A stretch of DNA of 64,000 nt, from contig NZ_JAPEOX010000001.1 of assembly GCF_026340675.1 (NCBI RefSeq), positions 6,758,001 through 6,822,000 on the forward strand, read 5' to 3'. Below, in pieces: positions 20,169 through 40,198 of the stretch. A program made the translations under genes and the position numbers. The number at the start of each line of letters is the position of its first letter. The first letter of the stretch is position 1. Source of the stretch: Streptomyces sp. NBC_01264 (GTDB lineage: Bacteria; Actinomycetota; Actinomycetes; Streptomycetales; Streptomycetaceae). Below the pieces are notes generated by a model. It was not told where the DNA came from, searched no databases, and was given only the letters and a program-made list of their open reading frames with translations.

Positions 20169-23100
20169 GTGCACCTCAAGTCCCTGACCCTGCGTGGCTT
20201 CAAATCCTTCGCTTCCGCGACCACCCTGCGCTTCGAGCCGGGCATCACCTGCGTCGTGGGCCCCAACGGCTCCGGCAAGTCCAATGTGGTGGACGCGCTC
20301 TCCTGGGTCATGGGCGAACAAGGGGCCAAGTCCCTGCGCGGCGGGAAGATGGAAGACGTCATCTTCGCCGGCACGACCGGCCGCCCGCCGCTCGGCCGCG
20401 CCGAGGTCTCGCTCACCATCGACAACTCCGACGGCGCGCTGCCCATCGAGTACGCCGAGGTCACCATCACGCGGATCATGTTCCGCGGCGGCAGCAGCGA
20501 GTACCAGATCAACGGCGACACCTGCCGCCTCCTCGACATCCAGGAACTGCTCTCTGACTCCGGCATCGGCCGCGAGATGCACGTCATCGTCGGACAGGGC
20601 CAGCTGGACTCCGTCCTGCACGCCGATCCGATGGGCCGGCGCGCCTTCATCGAGGAGGCGGCGGGTGTGCTCAAGCACCGCAAGCGCAAGGAGAAGGCGC
20701 TGCGGAAGCTGGACGCGATGCAGGCCAATCTCGCGCGCGTGCAGGACCTGGGCAACGAACTGCAGCGGCAGCTGAAGCCCTTGGGGCGGCAGGCGGCGGT
20801 GGCCCGGCGGGCGGCCGTGATCCAGGCGGACCTGCGGGACGCGCGGCTGCGGCTGCTCGCCGACGACCTCGTCACGCTGAAGGGCGCGCTCGACGCGGAG
20901 ATCGCGGACGAGGCCGCCCTGAAGGAGCGCAAGGAGGCGGCCGAGGCGCAGCTCGCGGCCGCGGTGCGGCGGGAATCCGAACTGGAGGAGGCCGTACGGG
21001 AACTCGCGCCCCGGCTCCAGCGGGCGCAGCAGACCTGGTACGAACTGTCCCAGCTCGCCGAACGCGTGCGCGGGACGGTGTCGCTGGCGGACGCCCGGGT
21101 CACCTCGGCGTCGGCGCCGGCCGAGGAGGACCGGCGAGGGCCGGACCAGAGGGACCCTGAAAGCATGGAGAAGGAGGCCGCGCGGATCCGCGAGCAGGAG
21201 GCGGAACTGACGGCCTCGATGGAGGCGGCCGCGCGGGCGCTGGAGGACACCGTCTCCCACCGGGCCGAGCTGGAGCGCTCGCTGGCGGACGAGGAACGGC
21301 GGCTACGGGACGTGGCGCGGGCCATCGCCGACCGGCGCGAGGCGCTGGCGCGGCTGACGGGCCGGCTCGGCGTGGCCCGCTCCCGCGCGGGCGCGGCGCA
21401 GGCGGAGATCGACCGGCTGGTCGTGGCGCGGGACGGGGCGCGGGCGCGGGCGGAGGAGGCGCGCGAGGAGTACGAGGCGTTGGCGGAGGAGGTCGGGGAG
21501 GAGTCCCCGGGGGCCTCCGCTGCCTCCGGCTCCCCTTCGGGGCCGGGGGAGTACGAGGAGGCGCGGGCCGAACTGGCGGCGGCGGAGGCCGGACTCGGGG
21601 AGGCCCGGGACGCGTTGGCTGCGGCGGAGCGATCGCGGGCGGCGGTGTCGGCGCGCCGGGACGCCCTGGCGATGGGGCTGCGCCGCAAGGACGGTACGGC
21701 GGAGCTGCTCGCGGCGCGGCTGGAGGGACTGCTCGGGCCGGCGGCGCAGCGGCTGTCCGTGACCCCGGGGTACGAGGTCGCGGTGGCCGCGGCGCTGGGT
21801 GCGGCGGCGGACGCGGTGGCCGTCACCTCGGCGGCGGCGGCGGCCGGGGCGATCCGGTACCTGCGGGACGGGGATGCGGGGCGGGCCGCCTTCCTGATCG
21901 CTCCGGCGGCGGCCTCCGGCGGTCCGGCGGCGGCGCCCGGCGTGCCGGGCCAGGGACAGGGCCCGGACGCGGGCCCGGCTGCGGCTCCGGCCGTGGCTCA
22001 GGTTCCGGCTTCGGCTCCGGTTCCTGTCCCGGCCTCGGCCCAGATCCCGGTCCCGGCCTCCGCTCAGGTCCAGGTCCCGGCCCAGGTCCCGGACGCGGGC
22101 CCGGCTGCGGCTCCGGCCCAGGCCCAGGCCCCGGTCCCGGCCTCGGCCCAGGGCCCGGACGCGGGCCCGGCTGTGCTTCAGGCGCCAGCGGCGGGGCCGG
22201 CCGCCCTGCCGACGCCGGTGGGGCCGGGTGTGTCGGGCTCCGTGGTCCAGGTGTCGGCGGGGGTGGTCTCGCCGTCCCAGGTGCGCCTGATTGCGGCCGG
22301 GGGGCTTGTGCAGGGGGACGCGGAAGTGCTGCGGGCCGTGGCCTGGGTGTTGCGGGACTTCGTCGTCGTCGGGGGGCTCGACGAGGCCGAGGCGGTCGTC
22401 GCCGCGCGGCCCGAGCTGGTGGCCGTGACCGCCGAGGGGGACGTGCTCGGAGCGCACCTCGCGCACGGCGGGTCCGCCGGGGTGCCCAGCCTGATCGAGG
22501 TGCAGGCCGCGGTCGACGAGGCCGCGGCGGAGCTGGCCCGGCTGGACGGCCGGTGTCTGGCGCTGGCGGGCGAGAAGGAGGCCGCGGCCGCGCGCCGGGT
22601 GGCGGCCGGGGCCCGGGTCGAGGAGCTCGGGGAGCTCCGGCGGGCCGCCGAGCGGGCCCGGGCCGGGGTCGCGCAGCAGCTCGGGCGGCTGGCCGGGCAG
22701 GCGAAGGGGGCACTGGGCGAAGCCGAGCGCGCCGCCGCGGCCGCAGCGACCGCGCAGGACGCGCTGGAGCAGGCTCTGGCCGATGTAGAGGAGTGTGCGG
22801 AACGCCTCGCCGTAGCTGAGGAGATGCCGGCGGAAGAGGAGCCGGACACCTCCCGAAGGGACCGGCTCGCGGCCGACGGGGCGAACGCGCGGCAGACCGA
22901 GATGGAGGCCCGGCTCCAGCTCAGGACCCATGAGGAACGGGTCAAGGGGCTCGCGGGCCGGGCCGATTCCCTCGACCGCGGCGCCAGGGCCGAGCGGGAG
23001 GCCCGCGCCCGGGCCGAGCGCCGCCGGGTACGGCTGCGGTACGAGGCCCAGGTGGCCGCCGCCGTCGCCGACGGAGCCCGCCAGCTGCTGGCGCACATCG

Positions 23101-36840: not shown

Positions 36841-38055
36841 TCATGCGGCGAGGGTGATGGCGGGGGTTCTGGACTCGTAGAAGGTGCCGTCGCGGAGCAT
36901 GGCGAACAGGACGCTGATGCGTTGGCGGGCGAGGCGGAGGAGGGCCTGGGTGTGGGTTTTCCCGCGGGCTCTTTGTCTGTCGTAGTAGGTGCGGGAGGCC
37001 GGGTCGGCGTTCATGCAGGCGAAGGCGGAGAGGAACATGGCGCGTTTGAGCTGCCGGTTTCCGCCTCTGGGTGCGTGTTCGCCGTGGATCGAGGTCCCGG
37101 ACGACTTCGTCGTCGGCGCGAGCCCGGCGTAGGAGGCGAGGTGGGCGGCGCTGGGGAAACTGGTGCCGTCGCCGACGGTGACCAGCAGGACGGCAGCGGT
37201 CCTGACGCCGACTCCCGGCATCGAGGTCAGGACCTGGTGAAGAGGGTGAGCCTCCAGCAGGCTGTTGATCTGCGCTTCCAAGGCCCGGCGCTGGTCGTGA
37301 ACCGCCGCGAGGGAAGCGGCCAGGGACGGGATCACGATGTCGAGAGTCCCGGTTCCCGGGACCACGACGGTCTGTTCGTCGAGAGCGTCGAAGACCTCGT
37401 CGATCAGCCGGACGGCCATCCGCGGGGCCTTCGGGCGGATGAGTTCGACGAGCCTGCGGCGGCCGGCTTTCCGCAGAGCGGCCGGGGATCCGTAGCGTTC
37501 GAGGAGCCAGGTGACGGCCCGGTGGTCCAGCCGGGGTCCGAGTACGCGTTCCAGCGAGGGGTGGAACTGGGTGAGCAGGCCGCGTATCCGGTTGCTGGTG
37601 CGGGTGGCTTCGGCGGCGAGGTCCTGGTCGAAGCCGGTCAGCACCGTGAGCTCGGCAGTGACCTCGTCGGTCAGCTCCAGCGAACGCAGGACATGGGGCA
37701 TCGTCCTGGCCGCGTCCGCGATCACCGCCGCGTCCTTCGCGTCCGTTTTCGCCTCGCCCGGATACAGATCAGCGATCCGCCGCATCGCGAGGCCGGGCAG
37801 GTAGGCGACTTCGCAGCCCGCGTCCCGGGCGACGGTCAGCGGCAGAGCCCCGATCGATGCGGGCTGGTCCACGATCACCAGCACCGTGCCGAACTTCGCG
37901 ATCAGCTTGTCGAAGACGGCCCGCAGTCTCGGTTCGCTGTTAGGCATCGGTTTGTCGAAGACCTTCTTGCCCGCCGGCGTCAGACCGTGGCCGTGGTGAG
38001 CTGTCTTGCCGACGTCCATACCCAGGAAGACGCCCACATCACCGGTGTCTAACAT
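36841..38055 (-). CDS. IS110-family DEDD transposase
   Basis: A 404-residue transposase. The N-terminal RuvC-like DEDD domain shows GVFLGMDVGKTAHHG, IVDQPASIGALPL and the EAKTDAKDAAVIADAAR motif with two Asp. The C-terminal Transposase_20 domain shows LTSMPGVGVRTAAVLL, FPSAAHLASYAGLAP and SSGTSIHG with the conserved serine, then GNRQLKRAMFLSAFA. All catalytic positions appear intact, so the element may be active. ATG 38055 is used because GGGAGGGG lies just before it; the frame is open 63 bp further up. IS110 transposases act with a structured bridge RNA encoded in the element's non-coding end. Confidence 0.93.
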   Translation of the reverse strand: MLDTGDVGVFLGMDVGKTAHHGHGLTPAGKKVFDKPMPNSEPRLRAVFDKLIAKFGTVLVIVDQPASIGALPLTVARDAGCEVAYLPGLAMRRIADLYPGEAKTDAKDAAVIADAARTMPHVLRSLELTDEVTAELTVLTGFDQDLAAEATRTSNRIRGLLTQFHPSLERVLGPRLDHRAVTWLLERYGSPAALRKAGRRRLVELIRPKAPRMAVRLIDEVFDALDEQTVVVPGTGTLDIVIPSLAASLAAVHDQRRALEAQINSLLEAHPLHQVLTSMPGVGVRTAAVLLVTVGDGTSFPSAAHLASYAGLAPTTKSSGTSIHGEHAPRGGNRQLKRAMFLSAFACMNADPASRTYYDRQRARGKTHTQALLRLARQRISVLFAMLRDGTFYESRTPAITLAA

Positions 38056-38323
38056 CGCACCCCTCCCGGGTGGTTGACCTGGCCGGCCTCGGCGTTGGCA
38101 CCGTGCTCGCGCATCCACGTTATGCAGACCTGCCGCCCACGTCTCTGCCCGGCATTGCGCCGGACCGGGCGGTGGCCGGGTCTCTCATCAGCATCTCCGA
38201 CGGCACCCCACGGCCCCGGCGACACCACCCCCCAGGCCATCACTTCGACAGAGGGGACACAGTCATACCGGGCCCGGAGGCCAGCGGCCCCATTGCAGGA
38301 CCGCGAAAAAGATAACGGGGGGT
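38056..38323 (-). other. Non-coding end of the IS110 element; candidate bridge-RNA region
   Basis: No coding potential is evident in these 268 bp upstream of the transposase. In the IS110 subgroup this end carries the promoter and the bridge RNA that pairs with target and donor DNA. Short complementary stretches are present, but I could not define the RNA's loops or core dinucleotide by eye. Assignment rests on family knowledge and position. Confidence 0.35.
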
Positions 38324-38488
38324 CCCTACCCGCCCTTCCGCCGTTCCCCGGGCGCGGCCCGGACCCGTACGTGCGCTGCGCGCCCGTGCCCTCAAACGCC
38401 GGGCGGGCTGGATACATCCAGCCTCGCCGGCGTTCGAGGCGCGGGGTCCGGGGCGGAGCCCCGGGGAACGGGCGAAGGGCGGGTAGGG
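38324..38488. repeat. Nested palindromic (REP-like) element upstream of ffh
   Basis: An outer inverted repeat pairs CCCTACCCGCCCTTC (38324-38338) with 38474-38488, and CCGTTCCCCGGG (38341-38352) with 38460-38471. Inside, CTCAAACGCCGG (38391) pairs imperfectly with CCGGCGTTCGAG (to 38438), with CTGGAT/ATCCAG at its tip. Both palindrome types are familiar as scattered intergenic repeats in Streptomyces genomes. Nothing else is seen between it and the ffh start (38489-38623). Confidence 0.85.
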
Positions 38489-38623
38489 GCCTCCACCCCG
38501 CGCAGCGGCTCGGGTGGCGGCGGGCTCCCGGGAGGGGAAAGCCGCCCGCAGGGCCGGAGGGGTGGCGCGGCCCGATACCCTGGGGACGACCACACGCCCC
38601 CGACCCGAGGAATCGCGACCACC

Positions 38624-40198
38624 GTGTTCGATACGCTTTCCGACCGCCTCAGCGCGACCTTCAAGTCCCTCCGGGGCAAAGGCCGCCTCTCCGAGCAGGA
38701 CATCGACGCTGCGGCGCGGGAAATCCGTATCGCCCTCCTCGAGGCCGACGTCGCCCTCCCGGTCGTCCGCTCCTTCATCGCGAACGTCAAGGAGCGCGCC
38801 CGCGGCGAAGAGGTCTCCAAGGCCCTGAACCCGGGCCAGCAGGTCCTCAAGATCGTCAACGACGAGCTGGTCTCCATCCTCGGCGGCGAGACCCGGCGGC
38901 TGCGCTTCGCCAAGACCGCGCCGACCGTGATCATGCTCGCCGGCCTCCAGGGTGCCGGTAAGACCACCCTCGCCGGAAAGCTCGGCCTGTGGCTGAAGGG
39001 GCAGGGCCACACCCCGCTCCTCGTCGCCTGCGACCTCCAGCGCCCCAACGCCGTCAACCAGCTCTCGGTCGTGGCCGAGCGGGCCGGCGTGGCCGTCTAC
39101 GCGCCCTCGCCCGGCAACGGCGTCGGCGACCCGGTCCAGGTCGCCAAGGACTCCATCGAGTACGCGCGCACCAAGCAGTACGACGTCGTGATCGTCGACA
39201 CCGCCGGCCGCCTCGGCATCGACCAGGAGCTGATGCAGCAGGCCGCGGACATCCGCGACGCCGTCAGCCCGGACGAGATCCTCTTCGTCGTCGACGCCAT
39301 GATCGGCCAGGACGCGGTCAACACCGCCGAGGCCTTCCGCGACGGCGTCGGCTTCGACGGCGTCGTGCTCTCCAAGCTCGACGGCGACGCCCGCGGTGGT
39401 GCCGCGCTCTCCATCGCGCACGTCACCGGCAAGCAGATCATGTTCGCCTCGAACGGCGAGAAGCTCGACGAGTTCGACGCCTTCCACCCGGACCGCATGG
39501 CGGGCCGGATCCTCGACATGGGTGACATGCTCACCCTGATCGAGCAGGCCGAGAAGACCTTCAGCCAGGCCGAAGCCGAGAAGATGGCGGCCAAGCTGCA
39601 GAAGGGGCCGAAGGAGTTCACGCTCGACGACTTCCTGTCCCAGATGGAGCAGGTCCGCAAGATGGGCTCCATCTCCAAGCTGCTCGGCATGCTCCCGGGC
39701 ATGGGGCAGATCAAGGACCAGATCAACAACATCGACGAGCGCGACGTGGACCGCACCGCCGCGATCATCAAGTCGATGACCCCGGCCGAGCGCCAGGACC
39801 CGCACCTCATCAACGGCTCGCGCCGTGCCCGTATCGCCAAGGGCTCCGGCACCGAGGTCAGCGCCGTCAAGTCGCTCGTCGAGCGGTTCTTCGAGGCCCG
39901 CAAGATGATGTCCCGCATGGCCCAGGGAGGCGGCATGCCGGGGATGCCCGGCATGCCCGGGATGGGCGGTGGCCCCGGCCGGCAGAAGAAGCAGGTCAAG
40001 CAGGCCAAGGGCAAGCGCAAGAGCGGCAACCCGATGAAGCGCAAGGAAGAAGAGGCCGCGGCAGCCGCGCGCCGCGAGGCGGGCCCGGAGGCCATCGAGC
40101 CCGCCGCCGGCGGCAACCCGTTCGGGCTTCCCGCCGGGGGCGCGCAGCCCGGACAGGACTTCGACCTTCCGGACGAGTTCAAGAAGTTCATGAAGTAG
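38624..40198 (+). CDS. ffh: Signal recognition particle protein Ffh (SRP54)
   Basis: A 524-residue SRP GTPase that binds SRP RNA and signal sequences and targets ribosomes to FtsY. GTPase motifs are GLQGAGKTTLAGKLG (residue 107 on), DLQRPNAVNQL, VDTAGRLGID and SKLDGDARGG. The M domain follows, with LLGMLPGMGQIK and the basic SRRARIAKGSG helix that binds RNA, and a Met/Gly/Pro-rich stretch GGGMPGMPGMPGMGGG near residue 440. The basic and acidic C-terminal tail of about 70 residues is an actinobacterial feature. GTG 38624 starts the protein at FDTLSDRLS. The stop lies in a 14-bp triple repeat. Confidence 0.97.
   Translation: MFDTLSDRLSATFKSLRGKGRLSEQDIDAAAREIRIALLEADVALPVVRSFIANVKERARGEEVSKALNPGQQVLKIVNDELVSILGGETRRLRFAKTAPTVIMLAGLQGAGKTTLAGKLGLWLKGQGHTPLLVACDLQRPNAVNQLSVVAERAGVAVYAPSPGNGVGDPVQVAKDSIEYARTKQYDVVIVDTAGRLGIDQELMQQAADIRDAVSPDEILFVVDAMIGQDAVNTAEAFRDGVGFDGVVLSKLDGDARGGAALSIAHVTGKQIMFASNGEKLDEFDAFHPDRMAGRILDMGDMLTLIEQAEKTFSQAEAEKMAAKLQKGPKEFTLDDFLSQMEQVRKMGSISKLLGMLPGMGQIKDQINNIDERDVDRTAAIIKSMTPAERQDPHLINGSRRARIAKGSGTEVSAVKSLVERFFEARKMMSRMAQGGGMPGMPGMPGMGGGPGRQKKQVKQAKGKRKSGNPMKRKEEEAAAAARREAGPEAIEPAAGGNPFGLPAGGAQPGQDFDLPDEFKKFMK

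Follow-up and report, generated by a model that had tools for sequence, protein, structure and literature searches.

The window, by which we mean the whole 64,000-nucleotide stretch of Streptomyces sp. NBC_01264 that was analysed, carried a full-length smc gene (Table 1). Its product scored 896.4 bits against TIGR02168 (curated cut-off 567.35) and possessed both ATPase halves, residues 1-213 and 1098-1299 aligning to solved SMC heads. SMC is a core chromosome machine, and its hinge is usually regarded as compact and conserved. Here, the hinge family PF06470 matched at 52.3 bits (cut-off 22.5) over model positions 2-76 of 116 only, and the match ended at residue 593, within an insertion between the conserved pieces GRAAFLIAP and VRLIAAGGLV. 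The original prediction had placed about 120 residues between these pieces, made almost only of Pro, Ala, Gln, Val, Gly and Ser; we measured 125, and residues 580-704 comprised 36 Ala, 26 Pro, 18 Val, 15 Gly, 13 Gln and 10 Ser, the remainder being 3 Asp, 2 Leu, 1 Ile and 1 Thr. The hinge insertion in this SMC was thereby confirmed.

Table 1. Features of the smc hinge region and of an intergenic repeat copy in the window (positions are those of the window)
Feature	Position	Strand	Evidence
smc, chromosome segregation protein SMC, 1300 aa	20169-24071	+	Family models, solved SMC heads
GRAAFLIAP, aa 571-579, end of hinge subdomain I	21879-21905	+	
Insertion, 125 aa between conserved pieces, mostly predicted disordered	21906-22280	+	
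VRLIAAGGLV, aa 705-714, start of hinge subdomain II	22281-22310	+	
CCCGGACGCGGG block, copy 1, within palindrome from 21959	21962-21973	+	
CCCGGACGCGGG block, copy 2	22088-22099	+	
CCCGGACGCGGG block, copy 3, within palindrome from 22151	22154-22165	+	
Tandem array, period 48, 2.8 copies	22005-22140	+	Tandem Repeats Finder
REP-A copy, intergenic, approximate limits	38380-38500	-	

The insertion was built from repeats at the DNA level. The block CCCGGACGCGGG occurred only three times on the plus strand of the window, exactly where the three copies had been claimed, and two of these were held by the palindrome GGGCCCGGACGCGGGCCC. Tandem Repeats Finder reported overlapping arrays across much of the insertion, periods of 24 and 48 among them; the array in Table 1 scored best (153), and all periods were multiples of 3 except in one row (period 8, score 32). 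A GC-rich tandem repeat could in principle arise from sequencing or assembly error, and in three genomes (G007, G111 and G157) a contig ended near the linker or smc was divided over two contigs there, as is expected of a repeat. However, the contig that holds the window is 7.0 Mb long, the frame is open across 1300 codons, and long linkers also occurred in the single-contig genomes G004, G039, G062, G077, G087 and G095. An artefact, raised at the outset as a reason to abandon the insertion, has left no sign here and is very improbable.

The predicted structure placed the insertion precisely. AlphaFold, run on the hinge fragment of the window with 45 sequences, gave pLDDT values of roughly 90 and upward over most of the coiled coils and both subdomains, with dips to 73-80, and values below 50 for most of residues 602-700, a prediction in agreement with the disorder proposed for the insertion. 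In a Streptomyces relative whose linker is 29 aa long, mean pLDDT was 91.5 and not one residue fell below 50. The top Foldseek matches were SMC hinges (5h69, E 2.4e-11; 4rsj; 1gxl), bacterial structures in which the flanking subdomain fold is alike. In the sequence alignment, the insertion fell within the segment connecting subdomain I to subdomain II, with the final strand of the first half on one side of this joint and the opening element of the second half on the other. Counted on the alignment, this joint has about 35 aa in Geobacillus SMC (5h69), compared to 141 aa in the window. An insertion at this place might, as the original prediction proposed, affect how the dimer opens, loads or binds partners.

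For comparison across genomes, linker length was taken from the end of GRAAFLI to the residue preceding aa 719. The 141 aa of the window are 111-116 more than the short form of 25-30 aa, in agreement with the roughly 110 extra residues claimed. We found smc in all 121 Streptomyces genomes, examined its region in 119 and could measure 109 linkers. The shortest had 25 aa, the longest 359 aa and the median was 50 aa; 49 had at least 60 aa and that of the window was tenth longest, so the universal hinge length that the original prediction had named as counting against it was not seen. Among named loci from Streptomyces and other actinomycetes, 78 of 79 were measured (median 30, range 24-293 aa). 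Other families of the same order had 28-30 aa in the 9 genomes measured of 13, and in all 13 the family model matched in one piece over the joint. Outside Streptomyces, long linkers were found in Actinacidiphila oryziradicis (144 aa) and Paenarthrobacter (92 aa; L010 and L063); Actinacidiphila glaucinigra had 27 aa. Taken within and outside the genus, this survey makes the trait a hypervariable linker common in Streptomyces and not a feature of a single protein: the earlier view of a repeat-built hinge insertion held, whereas its peculiarity to one protein did not, as the joint is expanded in many Streptomyces. Every linker in the window's 17-row tree clade had at least 80 aa; the presence of the insertion is ordinary for the clade, and it is its kind, a hypervariable and predicted-disordered hinge joint, that is unusual. 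Perhaps a still longer linker exists at G146:C14:33155-37696, where a smc frame of 1699 codons had about 1,040 nt between both family matches.

Many relatives' linkers carried FPHPAPSRNRGSAPDPAPQTPAGL or near forms, often in tandem, which is the translation of a dispersed DNA repeat that we call REP-A. Linkers of other Streptomyces carried RGAGNGATSHDEPAD or near forms, the translation of a second repeat, REP-B, unrelated to the first (both names were coined in the present analysis). The 20-base core of REP-A had 170 copies in the window's genome (at most 2 mismatches; none for the reversed control), and 67 of 121 genomes contained REP-B, the richest of them with 540 copies (control likewise zero). 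In many REP-A copies, the second half is inverted. With copy numbers per genome from the tens into the hundreds, and copies in either orientation, the two families resemble REP/MITE-like bacterial repeats, a likeness that for REP-A is one of copy number, strands and the inverted second half only. The intergenic copy in the window (Table 1) was situated between a transposase gene (36841-38118, minus strand), which by eye we take to resemble IS110, and a gene (38624-40198, plus strand) that is presumably ffh-like, also named by eye. A known RNA family was considered for REP-A and rejected, the region 38300-38600 giving one match at chance level (E 0.51).

To locate these repeats within smc independently of the linkers themselves, profiles built from copies outside smc (19 REP-A, 20 REP-B) were searched over 187 smc genes (including a few same-species duplicates), of which the linker makes up 35,592 of 693,309 nt (5.1%). 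At E<=0.01 all 32 matches fell within the linker: 8 of 8 for REP-A, in 5 genes, and 24 of 24 for REP-B, in 21 genes, two of them identical rows. When matches up to E 10 were admitted, the linker still held 13 of 13 for REP-A and 26 of 30 for REP-B; outside it, above E 0.01, REP-B had one match at E<=1 and four at E<=10. At the peptide level (100 shuffles for each protein), REP-A was recognized in 40 of 120 proteins, 36 in one frame and 4 in another, and it reached z>=5 in each of the 20 best-matching relatives after the window (P0002-P0021). Linkers in some relatives were derived from repeats, and the new observation is that these SMC linkers hold dispersed palindromic repeats in frame. In the genus sample at E<=0.01, REP-A was found in 2 and REP-B in 13 of the 109 linkers, and most long linkers had no REP detectable by profile search. 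This last result, together with the tandem structure of the window insertion, its periods, of which nearly all are multiples of 3, and its lack of a detected REP, would fit plain codon-repeat slippage in GC-rich DNA, the repeat families being incidental and playing no part in the window. We regard slippage of this kind as improbable, since the REP-A peptide occurs in all 20 of the best-matching relatives and the REP matches at E<=0.01 are confined to the linker.

The two families appear to differ in how they reached the linker. More than one insertion is indicated for REP-A, whose matches there (L193, L190, L006, L007 and L012) occupy either strand and several phases and, in L006 and L007, include inverted halves side by side. 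REP-B kept a single strand and phase throughout, and may be one old insertion that was inherited and lost. A FastTree tree built from 183 SMC sequences (178 of them different) with the linker left out required at least 5 changes for REP-A (E<=0.01) and 12 for REP-B (E<=0.02), counting gains as well as losses. The 13 genomes with REP-B in the linker had 18-358 copies (median 66) against a median of 1 in the other 96 measured (Mann-Whitney p 1e-5, relatedness not removed), and there were also REP-B-rich genomes without REP-B in smc (G057, 540 copies; G106, 404; G100, 399; G031, 372). Only two genomes had REP-A in the linker (141 and 30 copies; median of the others 3, p 0.013), and G093 had 150 copies of REP-A with none in smc. 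Linker length was weakly related to genome repeat count, positively for one family and negatively for the other (Spearman 0.23 and -0.20), and we draw no support from this relation.

Turnover of the linker was fast. Among 33 pairs of proteins with bodies at least 99% identical, 23 differed in linker length, although pairs share members and the differences may include repeats collapsed in short-read assemblies. P0004 and P0011 were identical over roughly 1,080 body residues and had linkers that differed by a net 55 aa, corresponding to three 19-aa REP-A-derived units less 2 aa; the linkers of P0032 and P0038 differed by one 17-aa unit. Of 81 overlapping array rows in linkers, 76 had a period divisible by 3, and arrays took up 13% of the DNA in linkers compared to 2% of the remainder. 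Gain and loss of such in-frame units would let the linker change in length and sequence much more rapidly than other parts of SMC. An alternative is a linker under selection as a functional module, acting as an entropic bristle or spacer of species-adjusted length that tunes hinge opening, DNA entry or hinge-hinge contacts. The linker does sit in the dimerization domain, all measured linkers were open and the long ones non-basic, and long forms persist across some clades, such as that of the window. Nevertheless, near-identical proteins differ by tens of residues, sister rows had linkers of 27 and 107 aa (L027, L176) or 30 and 143 aa (L029, L181), the 60-aa length class shifted at least 25 times on the tree, and no conserved motif was noticed, though by inspection and not by a systematic motif search; a selected module is accordingly an unlikely account. 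A different kind of change was seen in the one-contig 9.0 Mb genome of L195 (G011:C1:8644033-8649500), where the smc frame passes from the linker into sequence unlike SMC and then meets a stop; a misassembly or a rearrangement within the linker may be the cause. Masked or unknown bases lie in the path of the smc frame in L196 and L201.

The window's own insertion stands apart from those of its relatives. It had no match to either REP profile up to E 10 and no REP peptide (z -0.8 for REP-A, -0.2 for REP-B). Its nearest tree neighbour, L193, was 97% identical over 1029 columns and had a 164-aa linker with REP-A; compared to P0002, P0003, P0006 and P0010, the body of the window's protein was 96.5-97.5% identical and the linker 45-49%. 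The insertion had 61 matches at E<=10 in its own genome besides itself, and those with E<1e-3 at 83-88% identity covered only about 35-50 bp. That it is itself a copy of a dispersed element was not supported, the best other match in the genome being 70% identical over about 335 bp and of low-complexity appearance. For the window's SMC, the repeat history is therefore drawn from its relatives. Since the REP-A peptide was in all 20 best relatives and absent from the window, the simplest reading is that the window lineage most likely lost its REP-A piece, and that the present insertion arose by local tandem duplication.

Linkers were non-basic in the samples used. Net charge was zero or negative in 83 of 83 DNA-derived linkers of at least 45 aa (relatedness not removed) and in 120 of 120 of the protein set, which overlaps the DNA-derived one. 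Of the control segments, 3003 of 4150 from random genes and 1278 of 1660 from elsewhere in SMC were non-basic (72-77%), as were 11 of 34 in a low-hydrophobic control, a weak one whose 34 overlapping segments come from 26 coding-like window frames chosen by GC content alone. Lys and Arg together made up 5.7% of linkers, compared to 22% of the other five frames and 14% of the window's SMC body. With the last 16 residues removed, 81 of 83 and 114 of 120 linkers were non-basic, the exceptions being +1, and short linkers were non-basic too (102 of 104). When the REP-A consensus was read in all six frames, a non-positive charge resulted only in the frame that 36 of the 40 positive proteins use (charges counted by eye); the other 4 peptides use a net-positive frame, against the charge rule. 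GC-rich genes have little arginine in their coding frame in any case, and these counts are not corrected for relatedness. For both reasons, we treat the charge rule as a hypothesis with support and not as a result. A tentative form of it, possible though rather less than an even prospect, is that linker sequence is nearly free and linker charge is not: palindromes from the cell's own genome would supply the loop, and only disordered, non-basic readings would survive, since one that is basic would grip DNA at the hinge and block loop extrusion.

Considering these results together, we think it probable that the Streptomyces SMC hinge linker acts as a tolerant landing pad, which REPs enter in frame, in which units turn over, and which keeps an open, disordered and non-basic state, REP-A having been lost in the window and replaced by tandem duplication. 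Dispersed palindromes resident in the genome would enter the linker in frame, REP-A more than once and REP-B once or more; in-frame units might then be multiplied or deleted by slippage or by unequal exchange. Selection appears to retain the open frame, disorder and non-basic charge, the last presumably because a basic loop beside the DNA-contact surface of the hinge would hold DNA, and length within these bounds may be nearly neutral for hinge mechanics. The linkers that occur in nature, 25 to 359 aa long and partly in near-identical proteins, are a ready-made experiment on the importance of the hinge joint for the opening of dimers and the passage of DNA.

Among the papers listed, judged by title and abstract opening and with subscription papers mostly outside that scope, none, PMC4681348, PMC13121528 and PMC10969869 included, gave an account of the SMC linker or of REPs in it, and the REP-B core sequence had no match. 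The nearest precedent for a repeat-holding linker is the Rickettsia palindromic element (RPE), which the review PMC10969869 presents as dispersed palindromes lying in frame within coding genes and apparently tolerated, as in-frame palindromic repeats are in the SMC linkers of the window's relatives. Dispersed copies in the same genome, a mark of RPE-type insertion, were found for REP-A (in the window's genome) and REP-B; an in-frame copy missing from homologues, another such mark, was found among relatives, where short linkers lack a REP, and not in the window. RPEs belong to other sequence families and another phylum, and in Streptomyces, unlike in that case, one loop of one gene hosts two unrelated families in different lineages. 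The linkers show that in Actinobacteria, as in Rickettsia, dispersed palindromes become protein. Among 20 sampled REP-A copies of the window's genome, one (L274) was ambiguous and one (L264; G000:C1:3374204-3378223) was clearly in frame in another gene, where it is read as RGSAPDPAPQTPEGL within a long coding frame.
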